Shown in pieces: positions 1 to 10,496 of a DNA stretch of 10,564 bases (position 1 is its first letter; each line of letters starts with the position of its first letter). A program made the position numbers and the translations under genes. Under the pieces are notes generated by a model that was not told where the DNA came from, made no database searches, and saw nothing but the letters and a program-made list of their open reading frames with translations. The DNA comes from an uncultured Lachnospiraceae bacterium. Lineage in GTDB: Bacteria; Bacillota; Clostridia; Lachnospirales; Lachnospiraceae. Location: NCBI GenBank assembly GCA_905236545.1, contig CAJOQO010000294.1:1-10564 (forward strand). The letters are read 5' to 3'.

Positions 1-2145
1 GATATGGCTGATCGGATTCTCCTTGATGGCACCAAGCCGGTCGGTCCTGGCGGAGAACTCTCCGAAGAATTCCTCACCCTCCAGATCCGCGATCGTCTTT
101 CCGCTCTCCAAGGCATGCTTCAGCTTCTCTCCGACCCTTCTTGCCGCCTCACCCGTCATCACCGTCTGGCGGGATGCCGTGGACGTTCCCGCATCCGGCG
201 TCCGGACCGTATCGGATGCTTCAAACACAAACAGCGCAGGATCCAGTCCTGTCACATGGCAGATCTCCGTCAGCACCATCTGACCGATTCCCTGTCCCAT
301 ACAGGCGGCCGAGGTACGGATATGAATCCTTCCCTGCTCCACCGAGAGCAGCACCCTGCCGATATCCTTCTTTCCCATGCCGGTGCCCGAATTCTTGAAT
401 CCGCACGCGATTCCCGCATACGGATGGGCATAAAACACATCCTTTACCGCGTCCAGACATGCTTCCAGATTGGTATCCGCCTCCGCTCTCTGCCCGTTGG
501 GAAGAATGTCTCCCGGCTTAATCGCGTTGCGCCGCCGGATCTCCCAGGGATCGAGCCCCGCCATCTCAGCCAGGAGATTGATATTCATCTCCGTCGCAAA
601 ACAGCTCTGCGCTACGCCGAATCCGCGGTAAGCGCCCGAAACCACATTGTTGGTGTAGACCGACATGCCGAACACATCGATGTTCTGATAATTGTACGGA
701 CCGGCCGCATGCGTGCAGGCCCGGTGCAGCACAGGTCCGCCAAGGGACGCGTAGGCTCCCGTATCCGCGATGATAACGCCCTTCATGGCAGTCAGGATCC
801 CGTTCTCATCACAGGCAGTCGTGAATTCCATCTCCATCGGATGACGTTTGACATGATAGTCCAGGGATTCCTGCCTGGTGTACTTCATCTTGACCGGCCG
901 CTTCGTATACCAGGCCATCAGGGCGGCATAGGGCTGGACACTCATATCTTCCTTCCCGCCGAAGCCGCCGCCCACAAGCGCGGCCCGCACATGAACCTTC
1001 TCCGGAGGCAGGCCGAGCATCTTAGAGCATTCCCGCTGTACGTCGTAGACAGACTGGCTCGAAGTATAGATCAGCAGGCCGTCGCCGCCCTCCGGAAGCG
1101 CAACCGCGCACTCGGGTTCCATAAAGCCATGCTCCTGCCACGGTGTCTTATACTTGCGGGTAACCACATACTTTGCGTTCCTGATCGCTTCATCCGCATC
1201 GCCCCGGACCAGGTTCGCCCGGCTCATGACATTGCCGTCCTCATGGATCAGCGGCGCGTCGCCCCGGAGCGCCTCAAAGGGGCTTGTGACAGGCTTCAGC
1301 TCCGTATAGTCCACCTCGATCAGATCCAGAATCTCCTGCAGGGACTCCGGCTTTTCGGAGGCAGCCACGGCCAGGACGTTGCCGACGTACCGGGTGATAT
1401 CCCCGACGCCCATCATCACATCCCAGTCCTGCTTGATATGTCCGATCTTATTGCACGGAACGGATTCCCTGGTCAGGATCCTCACGCAGTCCGGATGCTG
1501 CACAGCCTTCGAGATGTCGATCCTGTCGATCCTTGCGCGCGGATACCTGGAATACAGTGCCGCGGCATAAAGCATGCCCTCCACATAGATATCATCCGTA
1601 TAGATGCCGGTTCCGTTCACCTTTTCCTTCGCGTCGATCCGCTGGGCATGTTCATTCATATGAAGCGTCTTCGGACGGGGCGGAACCGGACGCTTCTCGC
1701 GGAAGAAATCAGCCGCCATCAGGATCGCGTCCTCAATCTTCTTATAGCCGGTACAGCGGCACAGATTTCCCCGGATCGCTTTCTTAACCTCCTGCCTCGA
1801 AGGCGTCAGCGTCTGGTCGAGAAGGCTCTTCGCGGAGATAATCATGCCCGGGATGCAGAAGCCGCACTGCACCGCGCCTGCCTCGGCAAAGCAGTGCTCA
1901 TAGACTTTCATCTCCTCCGGCCGGATCCCCTCAACCGTCAGAACCTTCCTGCCGGCCAGCCTGCTCAGAGACACCGTGCATGCTTTTGTCTTCTTCCCGT
2001 CAACAAGCACCGTACAGGTTCCGCACACGCCCTCCGAGCAGCCGTCCTTTGCGGCTGTCAGATGAAGATCATCTCTCAGAAAACGCAGCAGTTTCTTATC
2101 CTGCTCCGATTCATAGTCCTTCCCATTGATGTTCACAGTAAACAT
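1..2145 (-). CDS. Xanthine dehydrogenase-like molybdenum hydroxylase, fused [2Fe-2S] and molybdopterin domains (partial, 3' end off window)
   Basis: The minus-strand frame is open for 715 codons from 2145 to the left edge, where the gene runs off. Residues 1-75 form a plant-type ferredoxin domain (C36, C41, C44, C56). Residues 85-145 form the second [2Fe-2S] domain (CGFC at 94-97, CRC at 129-131). From about 165 on it matches the aldehyde oxidase/xanthine dehydrogenase large subunit: VNGTGIYTDD near 177-186, GGGFGGKED at 392-400, GAYRGFG at 504-510, CMGQG at 615-619 and TASRQT at 656-661. There is no FAD domain between the iron-sulfur and molybdenum parts, as in the selenium-dependent XDH family of clostridia, whose members are about 850 residues. 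About 130 residues are therefore missing, including the catalytic glutamate region. Expected role: cytoplasmic hydroxylation of xanthine, hypoxanthine or a related purine. A start at 2145 is preferred over the ATG at 2151 because GGAG lies 6 bases upstream of it. The substrate is inferred; another N-heterocycle is possible. Confidence 0.93.
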   Translation of the reverse strand, partial: MFTVNINGKDYESEQDKKLLRFLRDDLHLTAAKDGCSEGVCGTCTVLVDGKKTKACTVSLSRLAGRKVLTVEGIRPEEMKVYEHCFAEAGAVQCGFCIPGMIISAKSLLDQTLTPSRQEVKKAIRGNLCRCTGYKKIEDAILMAADFFREKRPVPPRPKTLHMNEHAQRIDAKEKVNGTGIYTDDIYVEGMLYAAALYSRYPRARIDRIDISKAVQHPDCVRILTRESVPCNKIGHIKQDWDVMMGVGDITRYVGNVLAVAASEKPESLQEILDLIEVDYTELKPVTSPFEALRGDAPLIHEDGNVMSRANLVRGDADEAIRNAKYVVTRKYKTPWQEHGFMEPECAVALPEGGDGLLIYTSSQSVYDVQRECSKMLGLPPEKVHVRAALVGGGFGGKEDMSVQPYAALMAWYTKRPVKMKYTRQESLDYHVKRHPMEMEFTTACDENGILTAMKGVIIADTGAYASLGGPVLHRACTHAAGPYNYQNIDVFGMSVYTNNVVSGAYRGFGVAQSCFATEMNINLLAEMAGLDPWEIRRRNAIKPGDILPNGQRAEADTNLEACLDAVKDVFYAHPYAGIACGFKNSGTGMGKKDIGRVLLSVEQGRIHIRTSAACMGQGIGQMVLTEICHVTGLDPALFVFEASDTVRTPDAGTSTASRQTVMTGEAARRVGEKLKHALESGKTIADLEGEEFFGEFSARTDRLGAIKENPISHI

Positions 2146-2271
2146 ACGCATCTCCAATCTATCCGGCTGCAGTCCCTGCCGGACGGTCCGCACCGCCTCA
2201 TTCGCCGCCCTGTCAGCGGCATTTCGCTCAGCTCAGGTCCTTACACGATGCCCCCTGGATCAGGCGCCTGG
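2146..2271. other. 126-bp gap between the permease-kinase gene and the XDH-like gene
   Basis: The gap contains a 10-bp perfect palindrome at 2261-2270 just after the kinase stop codon and a short inverted repeat at 2180-2190 (CGGAC/GTCCG, one-base loop). Neither is followed by a T-run. I see no -35/-10 pair on the minus strand. The XDH-like gene could therefore be read from the same transcript as the permease-kinase gene. The only clear signal is GGAG, 6 bases before the ATG at 2145. Confidence 0.45.
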
Positions 2272-5200
2272 TCAGGGAGCCTTTCTCCTTCGGATCAGCT
2301 CAACCATCGTTTCATACAGGCGCTCCGGCTCGACCGGCTTTGACAGATGGGCATTCATGCCGGCCTGCAGGGAACGCTCTACATCTTCATCGAACACATT
2401 TGCCGTCATGGCGATGATCGGTACCGTCCGTGCGTCCGCGCGTTCCATGGCACGGATCGCCCGCGTCGCGCTGAGCCCGTCCATTACCGGCATCCTTACA
2501 TCCATAAGGATCACGTCGAAATAACCCTCTTCGCTCTCTTCAAAGATCTTCACGGCGATCTCGCCGTTTATTGCGTGGGTTGCCAGAATGTCTTCCAGAT
2601 TGAGCAGATCCTCCAGAATCTCCGCATTCTGCTCAACGTCCTCCGCCATCAGAACCTTGCATCCGGACAGAATCTGATGGATCTCTTCCCTGGAAGCATC
2701 CCGATCCCCATCCTCCGGCACTGCCCCGCCGGTGCGCCGCTGCACAACCATATGGATCACCCGGAGCAGGCTGTCGGAAAACAGCGGTTTGGCCACGATG
2801 CCGTCCACGCCGTCCTCTCTCGCCTCCTCGTCGATGATATCCCAGTTGTATCCGGTCAGCATGATCACATTCGTCTTCCCGCCGTCGAAAGAGCGAAGGC
2901 TGCGCACCAGCTCCAGTCCGTTCATTTCAGGCATCTTGTAGTCTGTAAGAAGCAGATCGTAGGGTTCTTCCCTCCGGACGGCATCCCTCAGCTTCTGAAG
3001 TCCCTGCTGTGAATCCGTCACTGCCTCCGCCGGGATTCCGAGACTGCGCAGGACCATCTTCGTATGCTCGCAGGCAATCTCATCATCATCCACCACGAGG
3101 GCGCGCATTCCCTCCGGAAGGGAGATTCCATGCTCGTCTCTGGCACTCCGGTCAGAAGCCGTAAGGGTAACGGTAACCGTGAAGGTCGATCCTTCGCCCT
3201 TTTTGCTTTGTACATCGATCTCCCCGTTCATCATCTGCACAAAGTTCCGGGTGATGGACATGCCCAGCCCGCTGCCGCCATATTTGTTGGTAGTGGTAGC
3301 GTCCTCCTGCGAAAATGCGTCGAAGATCTTCGGAATGTATTCCTCATCCATTCCGATTCCGGTGTCCTTCATGACAAAGCGCAGCGTACACATGCCCTCG
3401 AACCGGTTCACCTGCTCCGCGGTCAGCGTGACCGTTCCGGGCGCTTCCGTAAACTTGACCGAATTGCCGAGAATGTTGATCAGAACCTGCTTGAGCTTCA
3501 TCTCATCGCCGTAATAGTAGTCAAGAACCGATCCGATAATCTGGCATTCATAGTGAAGTCCCTTTTCCTGACACTGCCCGTTGATGATGATATTGATCTG
3601 ATCCAGGAATTCCCGGAAGGAAAACTCCTCATTTTTCAGCACCATCCGGCCCGACTCGATCCGGCTCATATCCAGAATATCATTGATCAGGCCCAGCAGA
3701 TGCCCGGCGCTGGCGCCGATCTTCTCCAGATGCTCCCTTGTTCGCGGGGACAGATCCGGATCGCGCAGCGCGATGTTGTCCAGTCCGATGATCGCATTCA
3801 TCGGTGTCCGGATCTCATGGCTCATGTTGGACAGGAAGCTGGTCTTGGCGCGGCTGGTCTCCTCCGCCAGCGCCTTCTCCACTTCGATCTGCTTCTCCCT
3901 CTTCTGCATCTGATGATAAATATCAAGAAGGATCAGCAAAGCCGCGATGATCAGAACCGCCTGCACCAGATTGATCAAAGCGACGGAACGGTCCACAGAG
4001 CGCAGCATCTCCTTCAGGCCCTGCGGCGTCTCCTCCGAGATAAACTTCGTCACCGACTGATCCACCCTTGCTGTCGTTGTCTGCAGCACCCAGACGCCCG
4101 AAGTAAAGATGATCAGTCCGAGCAGAACGATCCAGGCAACAATGGAGCGGCCAAGCCTGCGCTGCTTGTCCGAGCCCAGAACGAGACGGAATACCGCAAA
4201 GCCGAGGATTCCCCATGCGGCAAGGATCAGGTAGGACTCGGTCGACAGGGTTTTCACCGAGGTAAGATTCGGAATCAGGAATTCCAGGGCAAACAGAACG
4301 GAGATGGCAAGGCCGGCAAGGCCGGCTGCAGCCATTCCCCTGTTCCCCTCCTTCCGCGCCGTCTTCCATGCCGAAGCGGAGGCAAACGCGTAGGCGATGG
4401 TGGCCCCGACCGTAGTCACATCAACGATCCAGCTGATCGCCGTCCTGCCGAAAAACGGAAGAATAACCGAGACGCCGAGAATCGCGTAGATCGCATGAGT
4501 CGGCGCTCCTTCCTCGTTCCTGACGCCAAGCGACTCCGGAAACAATCCATCCTCCGCGAGGGAAGCGATCAGTCTGCTCAGGGCGATATAGTGGCCGACG
4601 AGCCCCGTAAGAATCCCGCAAAGCGCCGCGCATCCAAGCAAAGCGGCTCCCGCCCTTCCCATCGAGGCAAACGCCGCGAAGAAAGTCGGCTGGGATTCCA
4701 CGCCGGAATACTCGCCCAGGTTCGCCACATAATCCGCCCATGAGGAACACCCCTCCGGCTGGATGCTGGCGCCAAGCAGGGCCAGAGCCGTGTAGGCAGC
4801 CGCAGCGGCCAGGAGCGACAGGGCAAGGATGCGGAAAACGCGGCGCGGGGAAAACTTCATCTCCGCGGCAGAATGAGAGATCGATTCGAATCCCACATAA
4901 GCCCACGGGGCCAGCGCAAAGATGATAAATGTGCCTCCGGCCGGGCTTTTGCCCGGGGCAAATGCCGGTTTCAGGGCTGAAAGATCCCCCCTGATAAAGA
5001 TCATTGCCGCGATAAAGCAGACAAGCACTCCGACAAGCAGAAGCACCGCCGTTATGATCTGCATGATCTCTGCCACACGTCTTCGCAGGCAGATGAGAGC
5101 CGCAAGGAACAGGGAGCCGACCGCAATGAGGATCTCTCCCAGATAGACGTGGAACCCGGCGATCTCGTAGTCAAAGCCAAACTGAAAGAGGCTTCCCAGA

Positions 5201-5574
5201 AGGGTTCTTGCGATCAGCGGCAGGGCCGTCGCATTGGCCCAGATGATCGCGATGTAGGTCAGGATCAGAAACCATGCGCTCAGAAATCCATGATCATAGC
5301 CAAAGCTGTTTTTGGTATAGGTATACGTCCCGCCGCCATCCTGATAACGGTTCATCAGGTAGTGATAGTTCACGGCAAGCACCAGCATGACAAGAGCGCC
5401 CGCGATGATTCCGATCGCCGTTCCCGCACTGCCGGCCAGCGGCAGAAACGTCGTTCCGGGCATGACAAATGCCCCCCAGCCCACACTGCATCCAAACGCG
5501 AGCGCCCACGCTCCGGGCGCGGACAGATAGGGGGATATTCTGCGTGCTCCCGTATTCGCTGTATTCTGAGTCAT
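2272..5574 (-). CDS. APC-superfamily permease fused to hybrid sensor histidine kinase (APC-2TM-HisKA-HATPase-REC-REC)
   Basis: This is one 1100-residue reading frame. Residues 15 to about 465 resemble a 12-helix APC amino acid transporter: the broken-helix-1 motif GWGAFVMPG is at 32-40, and the helix 6 stretch PWAYVGFES (223-231) is followed by an AEMK sequence typical of the family. Two further helices (about 477-497 and 532-551) bracket an outer loop of roughly 35 residues. A basic, coiled-coil-like linker leads to HisKA with SHEIRTP (H586), then HATPase_c with N700/N704, DTGIG at 737-741 and GGSGLG at 766-771. Receiver 1 starts near 823 (DDD at 829-831, acceptor D878). Receiver 2 has acceptor D1025 and a KP motif near the C terminus. 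All kinase and receiver key residues are present. The protein is probably a membrane sensor whose transporter domain detects or moves a solute, by analogy with CbrA-type transporter-kinases, which use a different (SSS) transporter fold. The ligand is unknown. The start is fixed by a Shine-Dalgarno sequence (AGGAG, 11-base spacer) lying within a tandem duplication. Confidence 0.95.
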   Translation of the reverse strand: MTQNTANTGARRISPYLSAPGAWALAFGCSVGWGAFVMPGTTFLPLAGSAGTAIGIIAGALVMLVLAVNYHYLMNRYQDGGGTYTYTKNSFGYDHGFLSAWFLILTYIAIIWANATALPLIARTLLGSLFQFGFDYEIAGFHVYLGEILIAVGSLFLAALICLRRRVAEIMQIITAVLLLVGVLVCFIAAMIFIRGDLSALKPAFAPGKSPAGGTFIIFALAPWAYVGFESISHSAAEMKFSPRRVFRILALSLLAAAAAYTALALLGASIQPEGCSSWADYVANLGEYSGVESQPTFFAAFASMGRAGAALLGCAALCGILTGLVGHYIALSRLIASLAEDGLFPESLGVRNEEGAPTHAIYAILGVSVILPFFGRTAISWIVDVTTVGATIAYAFASASAWKTARKEGNRGMAAAGLAGLAISVLFALEFLIPNLTSVKTLSTESYLILAAWGILGFAVFRLVLGSDKQRRLGRSIVAWIVLLGLIIFTSGVWVLQTTTARVDQSVTKFISEETPQGLKEMLRSVDRSVALINLVQAVLIIAALLILLDIYHQMQKREKQIEVEKALAEETSRAKTSFLSNMSHEIRTPMNAIIGLDNIALRDPDLSPRTREHLEKIGASAGHLLGLINDILDMSRIESGRMVLKNEEFSFREFLDQINIIINGQCQEKGLHYECQIIGSVLDYYYGDEMKLKQVLINILGNSVKFTEAPGTVTLTAEQVNRFEGMCTLRFVMKDTGIGMDEEYIPKIFDAFSQEDATTTNKYGGSGLGMSITRNFVQMMNGEIDVQSKKGEGSTFTVTVTLTASDRSARDEHGISLPEGMRALVVDDDEIACEHTKMVLRSLGIPAEAVTDSQQGLQKLRDAVRREEPYDLLLTDYKMPEMNGLELVRSLRSFDGGKTNVIMLTGYNWDIIDEEAREDGVDGIVAKPLFSDSLLRVIHMVVQRRTGGAVPEDGDRDASREEIHQILSGCKVLMAEDVEQNAEILEDLLNLEDILATHAINGEIAVKIFEESEEGYFDVILMDVRMPVMDGLSATRAIRAMERADARTVPIIAMTANVFDEDVERSLQAGMNAHLSKPVEPERLYETMVELIRRRKAP

Positions 5575-5630
5575 GCTTTGTCAGACTCCTCCCGTATTCG
5601 CTGTATTCTGAGTCATGTTCTGTCAGACTC
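5547..5630. repeat. 42-bp tandem duplication of a translation-initiation region
   Basis: Two adjacent 42-bp copies, 5547-5588 and 5589-5630, match at 40 of 42 positions; the differences are at 5575/5617 and 5577/5619. Each copy carries an ATG and the first codons of the permease-kinase gene. On the coding strand the outer edges share the short sequence ATACGG(A/G)AG, present upstream of the second copy (near 5631-5639) and at the gene-internal end, which fits duplication by replication slippage. The junction creates the GGGAGGAG ribosome binding site used by the main start. Confidence 0.93.
5581..5616 (-). CDS. Upstream ORF / leader peptide of 11 codons before the permease-kinase gene
   Basis: A short ORF reads MTQNTANTGGV and stops at TGA 6 bases before the ATG of the permease-kinase gene. 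It has its own Shine-Dalgarno AAGGAG at 5628-5633 (11-base spacer), the same spacing as the downstream start. It is in the same frame as the large gene, and its first 9 residues are identical to that protein's N terminus, because both lie in copies of a 42-bp tandem duplication. The Shine-Dalgarno of the large gene lies inside this uORF. Translation of the uORF could therefore couple to, or compete with, the main start. Whether it is translated or functional is not known; it may simply be a by-product of the duplication. Confidence 0.45.
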   Translation of the reverse strand: MTQNTANTGGV

Positions 5631-5704
5631 CTTCCGTATCCTCAGCACCTGTACCCGATCCACTCCCTGCACATCCTGCCGGAGGCTCTGAGGGAACACT
5701 GACA

Positions 5705-5759: not shown

Positions 5760-6134
5760 TCAGACGCCGGATCCCTCATAGGCCTCGATTCCATCCTTTA
5801 TCTTCCGGTATGCCGCGGCAATCTCCTCCAGAATCCGGTCCACCTCCGCGTCGCTGAGGCTGCGCGCATGGCCCTCGCGGTATTCCTCCGCAAGCAGCGA
5901 CGCCGATTCGGAGAGCCGCTTCAGGCCAAGATTCCCGCTGACGCCCTTCAGCGCGTGGGCGCTTTCAAACATCTCTTTCGGATCCTTCGCCTTTCCGGCC
6001 TCGAGAAGCCTCTCCACGACACCGTTCTTCGAGAACTTCCGGATATGCTTATCCATCAGCTTCTCGATCCTCAGAACGCTCACCGCCTGTTCGTAATCTC
6101 CATCAATCCTCTGATACAGTTCCTTAAGTGTCAT
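5760..6134 (-). CDS. Stand-alone Hpt (histidine phosphotransfer) domain protein
   Basis: This 124-residue soluble, mostly helical protein carries the Hpt signature AHALKGVSGNLG, with the phospho-accepting histidine at H60, conserved K63 and G64, and the glycine-asparagine turn at 67-68. Its length is typical of a single Hpt domain. Hpt proteins accept a phosphoryl group from the receiver of a hybrid kinase and pass it to the receiver of a response regulator. The neighbours supply both sides: two hybrid kinases (one upstream, one downstream) and a REC-EAL regulator whose stop lies 46 bases upstream. GAGGAG at 6144-6149, 9 bases before the ATG, sets the start. Co-transcription with the regulator is likely. 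Which kinases it serves is inferred from position. Confidence 0.93.
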   Translation of the reverse strand: MTLKELYQRIDGDYEQAVSVLRIEKLMDKHIRKFSKNGVVERLLEAGKAKDPKEMFESAHALKGVSGNLGLKRLSESASLLAEEYREGHARSLSDAEVDRILEEIAAAYRKIKDGIEAYEGSGV

Positions 6135-6180: not shown

Positions 6181-7881
6181 TCAGTTTCTCTGTTCTCTCT
6201 GTGTCGAAAGCTCCGCTTCGATCAGTTTCTCAAACTCTTCCGGCGGTACCGGCCTCGAAAAATAATATCCCTGGACAAGGTCGCATCCGGCTTCCTTCAG
6301 GAGCTCGAGCTGTCTTGAAGTCTCCACGCCCTCGGCCACAACCTGGAGGCTGAGGTACTTCGCGATATCCAGGATCAGCTTTACCAGCCTCATGTCCGTC
6401 TCGCTGGACTCGATATTGCGGATGAACTTCATATCCATCTTCAGCACATCGATCGGCATGTCGGAAAGCATATTGAGGGAAGAATAGCCCGTCCCGAAGT
6501 CATCCATCTCGATCTGAAACCCAAGCTCCCTCAGCCGGGTCACAATATCCAGAAGATCCTTCGCCTTATCGGTGTAGGCGGATTCCGTGACCTCCAGCTT
6601 GATGGCACCCACATCAAGGCCATTGTCCCGCACCAGGCAGAGCAGACGGTCCACCAGCGTCGGATCAAACACATCCGCGCGGGAGAGATTCACGGAAACC
6701 GGAAGCAGAAAGCCATACTTCTTTTTCCACTCCGAAATCTGGCATGCGGCCTCCTTCCAGACAAAGCTGTCTACGATGCTGATCAGGCCGTTCCCCTCCA
6801 GAAGCGGGACAAAGTCTCCCGGAAAGATCATCCCGAGCTCCGGATGGTTCCAGCGGATCAGCGCTTCCGCGCTGCTCAGCCGGGGCGGATCGCACTGGAT
6901 ATCGTACTTTGGCTGATAGAATACCTGCAGCTGCCGCTCGCTGGCAGCGTTATTCAGGTCATTCAGAAGCCTCTGGTTCAACAGCTCCCTCGCATACATG
7001 TTATCATCGTAGAGCATCAGAGGATTCTGATAGTCCCCGCGTACCATGTTGCAGGCCGCTCTTGCCTGGTCAAAGGTCAGGACCGGATCGGAACCCTCCC
7101 GCCACGGCATAACCCCCATCCGAAGATGGATGCTGACATTCGGTGAGAGCCTGTTGACCTTGTCCTGAAAAGTCTCCAGGAGATTCGTGTAGCCCGTCTG
7201 ACTGATGCAGTAAATGTCAAAGCTGTCCGCCTCAATGCGGCTGGCGATGCCTTCCGTCTGCGCCAGGAACGCGCGGATCTCATCGCCGATCAGCCGGAGC
7301 ACCACATCGCCGAAGTCCCGTCCGTTCACCGCGTTAATGGAATGGAACTGGTCGATGTTGATAACGATCGAGTCCATATGCATCTCGGGATGATACTGAA
7401 ACAGCCTCTTCGCATACTCAAAGAAGAAATTCCGCGTATAAAGGCCGGTGAGCCGGTCGTGCTCCGCCGCGGAGATCAGCTGTCTGCCCTCGCTCAGCTC
7501 CAGGATCCTGGCGACTCTGGTCTGTATGATCTCCGGCATGTTAAACGGTTTGGTGATAAAGTCCGCCGCGCCCATCTGGAGCGCCTTGAGCTCCGCGCTT
7601 GTATCCGCCGTCAGGACAATCACCGGGATATGGTTCACACGGTCATCCGCGCGAAGCTTTTCCATGACCTCAAAGCCGGTCATAACCGGCATGTTCAGGT
7701 CAAGCAGAAGCATCGACAGATCATCCACATGCCGGTAGATCTCTTCCATTGCCTCAGCACCGTTCTGCGCTTCGATGATCTGGTATTTCTCCTCCTCCAG
7801 AATCGCACTCAGAGCGTCCCGGTTGAGCTCCTGATCATCTACGACCAGAACCAGTTTCGGACGTACAATCTTATCAGTCAT
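6181..7881 (-). CDS. Response regulator with REC, degenerate GGDEF and EAL domains (probable c-di-GMP phosphodiesterase)
   Basis: The protein is 566 residues and has no membrane segments. A receiver domain occupies 8-128 (D15, D16, acceptor D61, T91, K111). A GGDEF-like domain spans about 138-290, but its signature is EADSF (217-221) instead of GG(D/E)EF, so diguanylate cyclase activity is not expected. The EAL domain (about 305-555) keeps its catalytic set: E339 in EAL, N398, E430 and E433 in LEVTES, D460/D461 in DDFGTGYS, K481, E517 and Q537. It should hydrolyse c-di-GMP to pGpG, controlled by phosphorylation of D61. It is the only effector among the four signalling genes here. Start choice is uncertain: ATG 7881 lies 13 bases from AGAGAGGA (7895-7902), while a TTG at 7887 has a better 7-base spacing and would add two residues. 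An ATG at 7908 and a TTG at 7956 lack a good ribosome binding site. Confidence 0.93.
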   Translation of the reverse strand: MTDKIVRPKLVLVVDDQELNRDALSAILEEEKYQIIEAQNGAEAMEEIYRHVDDLSMLLLDLNMPVMTGFEVMEKLRADDRVNHIPVIVLTADTSAELKALQMGAADFITKPFNMPEIIQTRVARILELSEGRQLISAAEHDRLTGLYTRNFFFEYAKRLFQYHPEMHMDSIVINIDQFHSINAVNGRDFGDVVLRLIGDEIRAFLAQTEGIASRIEADSFDIYCISQTGYTNLLETFQDKVNRLSPNVSIHLRMGVMPWREGSDPVLTFDQARAACNMVRGDYQNPLMLYDDNMYARELLNQRLLNDLNNAASERQLQVFYQPKYDIQCDPPRLSSAEALIRWNHPELGMIFPGDFVPLLEGNGLISIVDSFVWKEAACQISEWKKKYGFLLPVSVNLSRADVFDPTLVDRLLCLVRDNGLDVGAIKLEVTESAYTDKAKDLLDIVTRLRELGFQIEMDDFGTGYSSLNMLSDMPIDVLKMDMKFIRNIESSETDMRLVKLILDIAKYLSLQVVAEGVETSRQLELLKEAGCDLVQGYYFSRPVPPEEFEKLIEAELSTQREQRN

Positions 7882-7968
7882 TACCAAAGCGGTATCCTCT
7901 CTTCCCATCAGATTACGGCGATTATTGATACCGTTATATCCGGCATTCAGACACAACAGTCTGTGCGG

Positions 7969-9462
7969 CTACTCTCTTCTTGCCGTATGGATCCATTTAT
8001 TCAGTTCCGCGTAAAGCCGGTCCGCGTCGATCGGTTTTGACAGGTGTTCATTCATCCCCGCGTTCAGCGAGTTGCGGATATCACTCTCGTATGCGTTGGC
8101 CGTCAGCGCGATGATCGGAACAGATCCCGCGTCAGGACGCTGCATGGCCCGGATCCTTTCCGCCGCCTCCAGTCCATCCATCACCGGCATACGCAGATCC
8201 ATCAGAATCGCGTCATATTCATACGGAGCAGACTTTCTGAAAAGCTCCACGCCGGCCAGGCCGTTTTCCGCCCGGACGCTTACAGCGCCCTCCAGCTCCA
8301 GAAGATCCGACACAATCTCCGCATTTTCCGCAAGATCCTCCACGATCAGAATACGGCACCCCGACAGGATCAGCTGCCCATCCTCCTTCTCATCCCCGTG
8401 TTCCGGCTCCGGCTGATCTTCTTCCGGGAGCGGCATAAACGGAAGAATCACGACAAAGGTGGATCCCTCTCCCTTTTTGCTTGCCGCTTCGATCCGGCCG
8501 CCCATGCCCGTAACCATTCTGTGGGCAGCCGCCAGGCCGGTTCCGGTTCCGCCGTATCGGTTCGTGAAACTCGAGTCCTCCTGCACAAACGGCAGAAACA
8601 GCTTCGGAAGAAACTCTTCATCGATCCCGATTCCGGTATCCGAGACGGTGAACCGAAGCTCTGTACAGGTATCCTCTTCCTTTTCGAGGTCCACCGTAAA
8701 ACGCACCCGCCCGGGGGCGTCCGTGAACTTGACCGCATTGTCCAGAAGGTTGATCAGCACCCGCTTCAGCTGCGCGGAATCACCGGAATAATGGCGCATC
8801 ACGCCCGCAGCGAACGAGGTTTCATAGGCCAGCCCTTTTTCCCTGCACATGACGGAGATCACCGCATCGACCTGTTCCAGCGCTTCTCTCATGGAAAACG
8901 GTTCTTTGCGGATGATCAGCGTGCCTGCCTCCATCTCCTGCAGATCCAGAAGATTGTCGATCAGGCCCTTCAGATGAACCGCGCTGTATCCGATCTTCTC
9001 AAGCTGGTCTCTGGTCTGCGGGGACAGATCGGGATTCTTCAGCGCCAGGGTATCCATCCCCAGAATGACATTCATGGGGGTGCGCATCTCATGGCTGATG
9101 CTGGCAAGAAAGCTTGTCTTCGCACGCTCCCCCTCTTCCACGGCCAGAAGCTCCGCCTCCAGATGCTCATTCTCCGTGAGCCGCCTCACGATATCGCTCA
9201 GCATCCGGCCCATGACGAATACAAAGATACTTCCGCCGAACAGAATGCCGGCCATGATGATATCCGGTTTTCCAAACAGGCCGATGAAGAGGTAGCCTGC
9301 CAGAAAAAACACCAGCAGCACAGTCGGGACCAGAAGGATCATATCCCCCCTGTCCCAGGACTTTCTTCCTCTGACAAACCGGCCGAACCTCACAAAGCAC
9401 ACGATGTTGTAAACCATCAGGGCACTTCCCAGAAAAACCATGCTGTCAATCACATATTTCAT
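7969..9462 (-). CDS. Membrane hybrid sensor histidine kinase (3 TM-HisKA-HATPase-REC)
   Basis: The protein is 497 residues. Three predicted membrane helices (about 3-25, 41-63, 68-88) have almost no external loop and no PAS, HAMP or CACHE domain, so it probably senses within the membrane or through a partner. HisKA has SHEMRTP with H124. HATPase_c has N238/N242, DTGIG at 275-279 and GGTGTGL at 304-310. An acidic linker (about 345-363) leads to a receiver with E375/D376, acceptor D422, T454 and K476. All key residues are present. A start at 9462 is chosen over an in-frame ATG 16 codons upstream because GGAGGA (9472-9477) sits 9 bases before it, and an extended -10-like sequence overlaps the upstream start. 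The kinase core closely resembles that of the permease-kinase in this cluster, so the two probably share ancestry. It is expected to phosphorylate its own receiver and then the nearby Hpt protein. Confidence 0.94.
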   Translation of the reverse strand: MKYVIDSMVFLGSALMVYNIVCFVRFGRFVRGRKSWDRGDMILLVPTVLLVFFLAGYLFIGLFGKPDIIMAGILFGGSIFVFVMGRMLSDIVRRLTENEHLEAELLAVEEGERAKTSFLASISHEMRTPMNVILGMDTLALKNPDLSPQTRDQLEKIGYSAVHLKGLIDNLLDLQEMEAGTLIIRKEPFSMREALEQVDAVISVMCREKGLAYETSFAAGVMRHYSGDSAQLKRVLINLLDNAVKFTDAPGRVRFTVDLEKEEDTCTELRFTVSDTGIGIDEEFLPKLFLPFVQEDSSFTNRYGGTGTGLAAAHRMVTGMGGRIEAASKKGEGSTFVVILPFMPLPEEDQPEPEHGDEKEDGQLILSGCRILIVEDLAENAEIVSDLLELEGAVSVRAENGLAGVELFRKSAPYEYDAILMDLRMPVMDGLEAAERIRAMQRPDAGSVPIIALTANAYESDIRNSLNAGMNEHLSKPIDADRLYAELNKWIHTARRE

Positions 9463-9471
9463 TACAGCCAG

Positions 9472-9477
9472 TCCTCC
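9472..9477 (-). promoter_or_regulatory. Ribosome binding site GGAGGA of the hybrid kinase gene
   Basis: GGAGGA on the minus strand lies 9 bases before the ATG at 9462. It is the only good Shine-Dalgarno near the 5' end of this gene, so it decides the start in favour of 9462 over the upstream ATG at 9510. Confidence 0.75.
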
Positions 9478-9510
9478 GAATATGGTTAAACAGGATCGTG
9501 TTGTAAACAA

Positions 9511-9536: not shown

Positions 9537-10496
9537 CTATCTCTTACTCTGATCCCAGGGCTGTCCGCTTGCCGCGGGCGGGTGGTTCCGCTTTGAAAAA
9601 AAGATCAGAAGAAGCATCGTCAGGATATACGGCAGCATATTGAACAGATCCGTATAGTTTCCCGCCAGCTTCATCGCGATGCACAGCTGCTGCCCGCCCG
9701 CCTTCGCGAGTCCGAAGATCAGGCACACTCCTGTCGTCGCCAGGATGCTCCAGTTGCCGAAGATCATCGCCGCGATCGCCAGATATCCGTATCCCATGTA
9801 GATCGACGGCGAGAAATTCGCCATGATCGAATAGGCAAAGCAGATCCCGCCGATTCCGGACAATGCGCCGGAGATAATCACCGCGATCCAGCGGGTCCTC
9901 ACAACATTGCCTCCGGCCGCGTCCAGCGCCTGCGGATTCTCGCCGCACGCCCTCAGCCGCATGCCGAAGCGTGTCCGGTACATCACATACCAGAAGAGAA
10001 TCACCAGAGCGATGATGATCCATTCAAAGGGATACATCTTCTGAAACAGGCCGCCGATCCATGGAATCTTCGAGAGAACCGGAATCGTATAGCGGTTTGA
10101 GACGCCAAGGATAAACTTGTTGGATGCGGTATTGGTCAGTGCGCTGTTGGCCGCGCTGGTAAAGAAGGTGGTCAGGGCAACCGCCAGTATGTTGACAACC
10201 ACGCCGCTGATCACCTGGTTCGCCTTGAAATTGATGCACAGAAGCGCATGAATGCAGGCATAGATGCCTCCGCCGACGGCGGCAGACAGCATCGCGATAT
10301 AGATCGGAATCTGTGAGGTCTTCGCAAAGTACGGCATCACCAGAATCGCGGCAAGGGCGCCTGCAAATGCGCCGAATCCCTGAAATCCTTCTATTGCCAG
10401 GTTCGTCACGCCGCTCTTCTCCGAGTAGATCGCGCCCACAGCCATGATCAGCAGCGGAAGGGCAAACGATAAACCATCCGTGAATAATTTCGTCAT
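9537..10496 (-). CDS. ABC transporter permease, NupQ/YufQ-like (BMP-type nucleoside or simple-sugar importer)
   Basis: This 319-residue, strongly hydrophobic protein belongs to the BPD_transp_2 permease family. The N-terminal SEKSGVTNLAIEG (about 25-37) matches the family's conserved E-(K/R)-SGV-N-x-x-EG element. The cytoplasmic loop GENPQALDAAGG matches the coupling-helix region that contacts the ATPase. NupQ/YufQ proteins usually form a heterodimer with a NupP-like permease, served by a NupO-type ATPase and a BmpA/PnrA-like lipoprotein that binds purine nucleosides. The start at 10496 has AGGAGG at 10506-10511 with a 9-base spacer and overlaps the stop of the upstream gene (ATGA). The hydrophilic C-terminal tail is rich in P, S, K and R. 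Purine nucleosides are the likely substrate from family knowledge and from the XDH-like gene in the same window; sugars remain possible. Confidence 0.9.
   Translation of the reverse strand: MTKLFTDGLSFALPLLIMAVGAIYSEKSGVTNLAIEGFQGFGAFAGALAAILVMPYFAKTSQIPIYIAMLSAAVGGGIYACIHALLCINFKANQVISGVVVNILAVALTTFFTSAANSALTNTASNKFILGVSNRYTIPVLSKIPWIGGLFQKMYPFEWIIIALVILFWYVMYRTRFGMRLRACGENPQALDAAGGNVVRTRWIAVIISGALSGIGGICFAYSIMANFSPSIYMGYGYLAIAAMIFGNWSILATTGVCLIFGLAKAGGQQLCIAMKLAGNYTDLFNMLPYILTMLLLIFFSKRNHPPAASGQPWDQSKR

Follow-up and report, generated by a model that had tools for sequence, protein, structure and literature searches.

The window, a stretch of 10,564 nucleotides from an uncultured Lachnospiraceae bacterium (contig CAJOQO010000294.1 of assembly GCA_905236545.1), encodes an 1100-aa protein, here called the APC-kinase, in which an amino acid permease of the APC family is joined to a hybrid histidine kinase with two receiver (REC) domains. 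The family of APC-kinases is real and widespread, and the protein is probably a transporter-derived receptor driving a phosphorelay into the turnover of cyclic-di-GMP (c-di-GMP). As noticed in the first-pass annotation, it is encoded by one uninterrupted open reading frame (ORF; 2272-5574, minus strand), which is intact, starts with ATG and comprises the following parts:

4141..5541 (-): APC permease-fold domain, residues 12-478
3907..4140 (-): extra two-helix hairpin, residues 479-556 (transmembrane helix TM13, outer tip 499-536, TM14)
3649..3906 (-): signalling helix and HisKA, residues 557-642, with the phospho-accepting H586 (codon 3817-3819)
3163..3510 (-): HATPase_c, residues 689-804 (Pfam E 3.4e-27)
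2734..3114 (-): receiver 1 (REC1), approximately residues 821-947, with D878; optional in the family
2308..2655 (-): receiver 2 (REC2), residues 974-1089 (Pfam), with D1025

The Pfam analysis of the window proteins (E<=1e-3; all domains of the APC-kinase score above the curated cut-offs) identified an APC family profile, AA_permease_2 (PF13520), at residues 22-432 (E 9.6e-29; 101 bits versus a cut-off of 27), which bears out the APC-like N-terminus proposed earlier, followed by HisKA (residues 576-642, E 3.1e-17), HATPase_c and two stretches of Response_reg (1.8e-41 for the whole protein), with H586, D878 and D1025 where the first reading of the sequence had placed them. The HisKA histidine, the HATPase_c boxes and the receiver aspartates are those of a hybrid histidine kinase. 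The predicted model (AlphaFold, monomer; mean pLDDT 85.7) exhibits permease helices in the LeuT-type APC fold, followed by helices 479-513 and 517-603, the second of which continues into the output domain. The two additional helices of the first-pass annotation are therefore present, but what it had drawn between them as a short outer loop forms, over about 38 residues (499-536), a hairpin tip that is mostly helical. By profile and predicted fold the APC-kinase is thus a member of the APC family, and by its motifs a hybrid kinase. Conserved elements of the APC domain include G32-W33-G34 (TM1), W112-A-N114 (TM3), P223-W-A-x-V-G-F-E230 (TM6) and R377..D385 (TM10); in the phmmer alignment W224 is matched to the phenylalanine of the LAT2 motif S-F-A-Y-G-G-W, and we take it to be the equivalent of AdiC W202. 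Searched against the sequences of the PDB, the APC part gave weak matches to xCT and LAT2 (1.3e-6 and 1.1e-5) and potassium-channel rows with E 0.03 or worse, and NCBIfam gave no substrate assignment, as all its APC matches fall far below their cut-offs. By eye, the start of the gene is tandemly duplicated (window 5545-5645, minus strand): upstream, a mini-ORF begins at another ATG (5616), shares its first nine codons with the gene and terminates six bases ahead of the true ATG (5574); its GGAGGAG may act as a ribosome-binding site.

A protein search with residues 1-560 against 5.8 billion proteins (7990 candidates scored) yielded 1661 matches at E<=1e-3; all of the 120 matches listed possess HisKA and a permease domain, and the automated source name of one of them is "signal transduction histidine kinase/L-asparagine transporter-like permease". 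Scanning the genomes of GTDB revealed at least 587 stretches encoding relatives, of which the best 80 were kept as loci. These loci favour kinase forms, since they were chosen as the best matches to a module headed by the window's own kinase fusion, and they are not all independent, some being the same contigs as separately fetched genomes (e.g. L080, L055). An ORF with both the APC and the kinase parts is present in 76 of the 80; two of the others hit a contig end (L093, L116), one is an APC-GGDEF fusion (L142) and one is a complete 553-aa APC ORF with no kinase in frame (L105). The window's genome is a fragmented metagenome-assembled genome (349 contigs, 72.49% complete), in which a chance or artefactual fusion of two genes might be suspected; however, homologs with the same domain order recur in these 76 loci, most of them from other assemblies and three of them from named strains (Eubacterium ruminantium FB3002, L117; Butyrivibrio sp. 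WCD3002, L151; MB2005, L155), which refutes an assembly error and leaves this explanation with practically no probability.

The titles of the loci include Lachnospiraceae, Clostridia, Coriobacteriaceae, Atopobiaceae, Erysipelotrichaceae, Oscillospiraceae and Selenomonadaceae; many of them refer to gut samples of ruminants (goat, sheep, roe deer, yak, water buffalo). Among sampled genomes the trait is patchy: the module is matched at E<=1e-60 in 24 of 299 from the same family and in 8 of 398 from the phylum as a whole, both counts including the genome of the window. Not all of these are fusions, as only frames of 473–532 aa were found in G323, G390, G553 and G426 (the last with two stops) of the phylum sample and only short frames in G760 (474 aa), G761 (495 aa) and G784 (545 aa, one stop) of the family sample, where G632 has both a fusion and a short frame.

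In 195 aligned histidine kinase (HK) fusions, each longer than 900 aa and chosen with a motif covering H586 (H, S or N allowed), position 586 is H in all 195, and N704, D737, G739, G741 and G769 of HATPase_c are identical in all 195. REC2 is present in 192 of them, the other three (L080, L055, L115) running off their contigs, and D1025 is conserved in 192/192; REC1 is present in only 111, with D878 conserved in 111/111. REC2 therefore looks like the constant element of the relay and REC1 like an optional extra, so that the earlier suggestion of two receivers as separate phosphate sinks holds only in part.

Across the membrane part, conservation was counted in 41 HK fusions thinned at 68% identity, with a threshold of at least 90%. 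The threshold is reached by 80 of 189 positions in TM1-2, 3, 6, 8 and 10, which are the pocket helices of the LeuT fold, and by 15 of 120 in TM4, 5, 7, 9 and 11; the corresponding counts are 8/24 for TM12, 5/20 for TM13 and 2/20 for TM14. Kinases with two transmembrane helices commonly sense with the part between them, and by this precedent the outer hairpin tip (499-536) could be the sensor and the APC domain only its anchor. Yet none of the 38 tip positions reaches 90%, their mean top-residue frequency (0.36) is below that of every TM segment counted, and in 16 GGDEF-type rows (below) the tip likewise has 0 of 46 positions at 90%. This pattern favours sensing in the permease pocket and makes sensing by the tip improbable.

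Comparison of residues 1-470 between 66 fusions and 17 stand-alone permeases revealed class-diagnostic positions: 112 is P in 14/17 stand-alones and W in 66/66 fusions, 230 is D in 14/17 and E in 66/66, and the fusions exhibit H at 234 (58/66), S at 233 (55/66) and N at 328 (54/66). All five lie in the pocket helices, unlike some of the other diagnostic positions. The pocket helices contain 9 of 14 fusion-specific positions (about 5.6 expected by length) and 9 of 17 stand-alone-specific ones (about 6.8 expected), suggesting that the diagnostic changes are tilted towards these helices only mildly; their use as proof of a rebuilt pocket was weakened by this recount, and the TM1 GWG was dropped as a receptor hallmark, since stand-alone relatives have it too. 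It is quite conceivable, if somewhat below an even chance, that the protein is a bifunctional transceptor, in which the APC core has kept its import function and the kinase signals flux or occupancy, as in CbrA. The core glycine/proline motifs shared with stand-alone relatives and the mild tilt agree with this, as does the best-known analogue, CbrA itself, which transports histidine (PMC7096432, PMC13022988). On the other side stand the pocket-helix positions 112 and 230, which differ by class, and Ks-Amt5, an ammonium transporter joined to a histidine kinase, which is described as binding ammonium without efficient transport (PMC5764959) and is thus a precedent for its loss.

Besides kinases, GGDEF and GGDEF-REC-GGDEF-EAL enzymes carry the same APC module as a fusion, one of them in the window's genome. 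The first-pass annotation had taken the APC fold for a sensor or transceptor and the helix pair for the element that converts its state into kinase activity. Indirect evidence supports the sensory module, with the helix pair as its natural coupling element: the hairpin is found in both HK and GGDEF fusions and is absent from the 11 stand-alone relatives with inspected ends (450–500 aa), which end soon after TM12, and its second helix enters the output domain; the coupling itself is what we infer from these observations. A careful 55-row tree separates 43 fusions from 12 stand-alones (support 100/100); in it the 18 GGDEF-type rows form one clade (95/84), and the 25 HK rows are paraphyletic when the tree is rooted on the stand-alones. 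Read most simply, the receptor would have arisen once, with a kinase output, and would later have switched once to GGDEF. The rows of the trees were thinned at 68% identity, and the 55-row tree left out the long-branch rows L168_SA, L171_f, L074 and P0230 and every second remaining HK row. Quick trees made earlier were less clear on the GGDEF clade: P0144 stood apart from the other GGDEF rows in the first, the GGDEF rows joined with weak support (22) in the second (six related rows added, nine dropped), and two changes were again needed for GGDEF in the third (P0133, P0159 and P0207 dropped). Two independent origins of GGDEF fusions were rejected in favour of the single clade of the careful tree.

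A further search for stand-alones, with residues 1-470 only and a length window of 258–822 aa that excludes most full-length kinase fusions, listed 120 proteins, of which 57 have nothing but permease domains; in 42 of these the match begins near residue 1 and ends short of residue 500. Most of the 57, which were not included in the trees, read as fragments, because many end mid-helix or have unrelated tails and several are named "partial", but genuine stand-alones may exist within the receptor family. Taken together, we regard as slightly favoured the view that there is a superfamily of APC-fold bacterial receptors, which would have originated once from GWG-type permeases by addition of the TM13-TM14 coupling hairpin, with class-diagnostic substitutions, several of them in pocket helices (P112W, D230E, Q234H, F328N), and then exchanged its outputs (hybrid kinase, diguanylate cyclase, cyclase-phosphodiesterase). 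A single type of solute sensor would thereby control c-di-GMP both directly and via a conserved phosphorelay in gut and rumen bacteria. That the diagnostic changes are only mildly concentrated in the pocket helices makes this view a little less probable. In one relative (G002; L058:8767-20000 and L069:1-5790) an APC-HK, an APC-GGDEF-REC-GGDEF-EAL and an APC-GGDEF protein are encoded within about 12 kb, with a xanthine dehydrogenase homolog a few kb beyond them.

The genes next to the APC-kinase are listed here in the order of transcription, in which the APC-kinase stands between the last two:

9537-10496: ABC permease, at the upstream end of the window's gene order
7969..9510 (-): second hybrid histidine kinase of the cassette, 513 aa (HisKA, HATPase_c and REC by Pfam), with a hydrophobic N-terminus by eye
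6181..7956 (-): REC-GGDEF(degenerate)-EAL protein, 591 aa (Pfam and motifs)
5760..6134 (-): Hpt phosphotransfer protein, 124 aa (Pfam Hpt 7.2e-10), directly upstream of the APC-kinase
1-2193 (-): selenium-dependent xanthine dehydrogenase (TIGR03311, 1048 bits, above the cut-off), cut by the window end

The Hpt protein exhibits the motif HALKG with H60. In the 6181-7956 protein the GGDEF motif is degenerate and the EAL motifs are present (EALIR, NLS, EVTE, DDFG, LKMD, AEGVE, QGY), with residues that presumably have the catalytic roles, so that by its motifs its output would be that of a c-di-GMP phosphodiesterase; over 549 columns it shares 45% identity with the tail of the APC-GGDEF paralog. 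An Hpt protein and a terminal receiver protein, the presumed partners of a phosphorelay, are thus co-encoded with the hybrid kinase. Neither these partners nor the GGDEF/EAL fusions of the same module nor the Amt5 precedent appeared in the first-pass annotation.

The recurrence of the cassette was counted in the 80 loci with a hidden Markov model for which 49 of their own Hpt proteins were used; 59 other kinases of these loci, including the cassette's own first kinase and only two lying more than 5 kb from an APC ORF, served as controls. Of 71 assessable APC-kinases, 52 have an Hpt gene on the same strand no more than 600 bp upstream, versus 0 of 53 other assessable kinases, and an EAL protein lies at most 2.5 kb upstream in 39/59 versus 2/50. 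An EAL gene lies downstream of 30/51 other kinases, as expected, because these include the first kinase of the cassette. The full order kinase > EAL > Hpt > APC-kinase is found for 30 of the 50 APC-kinases with at least 4.5 kb upstream, and several loci outside the four-gene form instead encode, downstream, a GGDEF protein and a further hybrid kinase (GGDEF downstream in 10/51). Among other neighbors within 8 kb only one family recurs at four or more loci (five loci, mostly on the opposite strand), and the ABC transporter and the xanthine dehydrogenase therefore look incidental; a purine link via these two genes was rejected, as it does not recur beyond close relatives. No Rfam match was found in the window.

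We propose that the permease core, of the LeuT fold, recognises a small solute outside the cell (probably an amino acid or an amine) and that its open/closed movement would be passed to the added TM13-TM14 hairpin, whose second helix would continue as one rod into the dimerisation/phosphotransfer (DHp) helix with H586 and change the DHp geometry. Phosphate would then pass from H586 to D1025 of REC2, to the stand-alone Hpt protein and to the receiver of the REC-GGDEF-EAL protein, whose EAL domain would lower c-di-GMP; REC1 may be an optional modulator of the relay, and the neighboring hybrid kinase may feed the same Hpt protein, giving a relay with two inputs. The sister proteins would skip the relay, with the same module fused to GGDEF or GGDEF-REC-GGDEF(degenerate)-EAL. 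The fold and the continuous rod are predicted by the model, and ligand binding, the direction of control, the phosphate path and the c-di-GMP output are the parts that we infer.

Several observations weigh against this mechanism. TM8, a pocket helix, has only 9 of 35 positions at 90% and is no more conserved than TM12 or TM13. The TM1 GWG and most pocket glycines are common to stand-alone relatives, so residual transport by the fusions is possible. One further HK fusion, among rows chosen without the motif, has R at the phospho-histidine position (L064). The four-gene cassette is incomplete or absent in 20/50 cases, with no Hpt detected directly upstream in 19/71, and since the context beyond the signalling cassette is not conserved, it indicates neither ligand nor regulon. 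The suggested phosphate path is read from gene order and motifs, the AlphaFold monomer cannot show coupling, and solute sensing, transport and kinase control by the APC-kinase are putative.

Labelling of the rows by regular expressions left 38 of 382 unlabelled and later five, of which P0283, L111 and L064 are members and L170 and L172 fall outside the family. L064 (8787-11702), with R for the phospho-accepting histidine, is possibly a signalling pseudokinase, and L170 (1483-3699) and L172 (1477-4110), from two other genomes of the order, encode an APC permease fused to an iron-containing alcohol dehydrogenase. L065 (7966-13308) encodes a 1780-aa APC-kinase-receiver protein with about 800 further residues without a Pfam match at E<=1e-3. 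Tandem pairs of APC-kinases (810–838 aa) occur in two genomes of another family of the phylum (L189:393-5382, L190:3504-8406); they have no receiver by BLAST and divergent H-boxes, and may act as a pair. The window's genome also encodes a 1026-aa hybrid kinase (L022:6360-9440), whose kinase half is 56–64% identical to that of the APC-kinase and whose approximately 500 N-terminal residues have no Pfam match.

The SLC5 transporter domain belongs to the LeuT fold class. The closest known systems are the SLC5-STAC kinases CbrA, CrbS and RpuS, which likewise unite a transporter domain and a histidine kinase in one chain, with conformational coupling proposed (PMC13022988, PMC7096432, PMC9100948). 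In CbrA the transporter, which is SLC5 and not APC, is joined to the kinase via the STAC domain (PMC13022988, PMC7096432), and proteins of this sort were called rare in a preprint (PMC13022988). Their linker is a cytosolic STAC bundle (plus PAS in CbrA), as opposed to a transmembrane hairpin continuous with the DHp helix (PMC13022988), and the partner of CbrA is the response regulator CbrB, as opposed to an Hpt protein and a c-di-GMP enzyme (PMC7096432, PMC13022988). In Ks-Amt5, too, an uptake transporter was recruited as the sensory module of a kinase, but the fold is Amt, and neither GGDEF sister fusions nor an Hpt cassette appear in the text covered (PMC5764959). Pfam (E<=1e-3) found neither SLC5/SSF and STAC nor an ammonium transporter domain in the APC-kinase, which has AA_permease_2 instead; it is therefore neither an SLC5-STAC nor an Amt-type kinase, and would resemble them only in its presumed way of working. 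The 5TMR-LYT receptors share a transporter-related membrane fold and modular outputs (HK, hybrid HK, GGDEF, EAL), but use the S-component fold (PMC11109136); that paper does not use the term APC, and "amino acid permease" is found there only in reference titles. Yeast Ssy1 is eukaryotic and signals through Ptr3/Ssy5 proteolysis, not through an enzyme fusion (PMC12958826). The amino acid transporters AdiC, LAT and CAT, with solved structures, are plain transporters without a fused kinase. A sensor-kinase review notes that some kinases are fused to transporters, with Ks-Amt5 as the example; the words permease, APC, CbrA and symporter are absent from the part covered (PMC8534201). Among the matches listed from the open-licence full-text literature, none is by title or abstract start a paper on APC-kinase or APC-GGDEF proteins, and a prior mention is possible.

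The principle of a transporter as sensor is thus known; the APC scaffold, the linker, the exchange of outputs and the relay cassette are new to it. Bacterial examples of how the alternating-access motion of a transporter can become a signal are few, and in this family one APC core is joined by nature to two unrelated outputs in many proteins. With these fusions, stand-alone relatives as controls and named strains, the conversion of a transporter to a receptor is directly testable. In the family, many members of which come from ruminant guts, a transporter fold apparently serves c-di-GMP signalling as a plug-in sensor, and for ruminant-gut anaerobes this would be a route by which c-di-GMP is tied to an extracellular nutrient.

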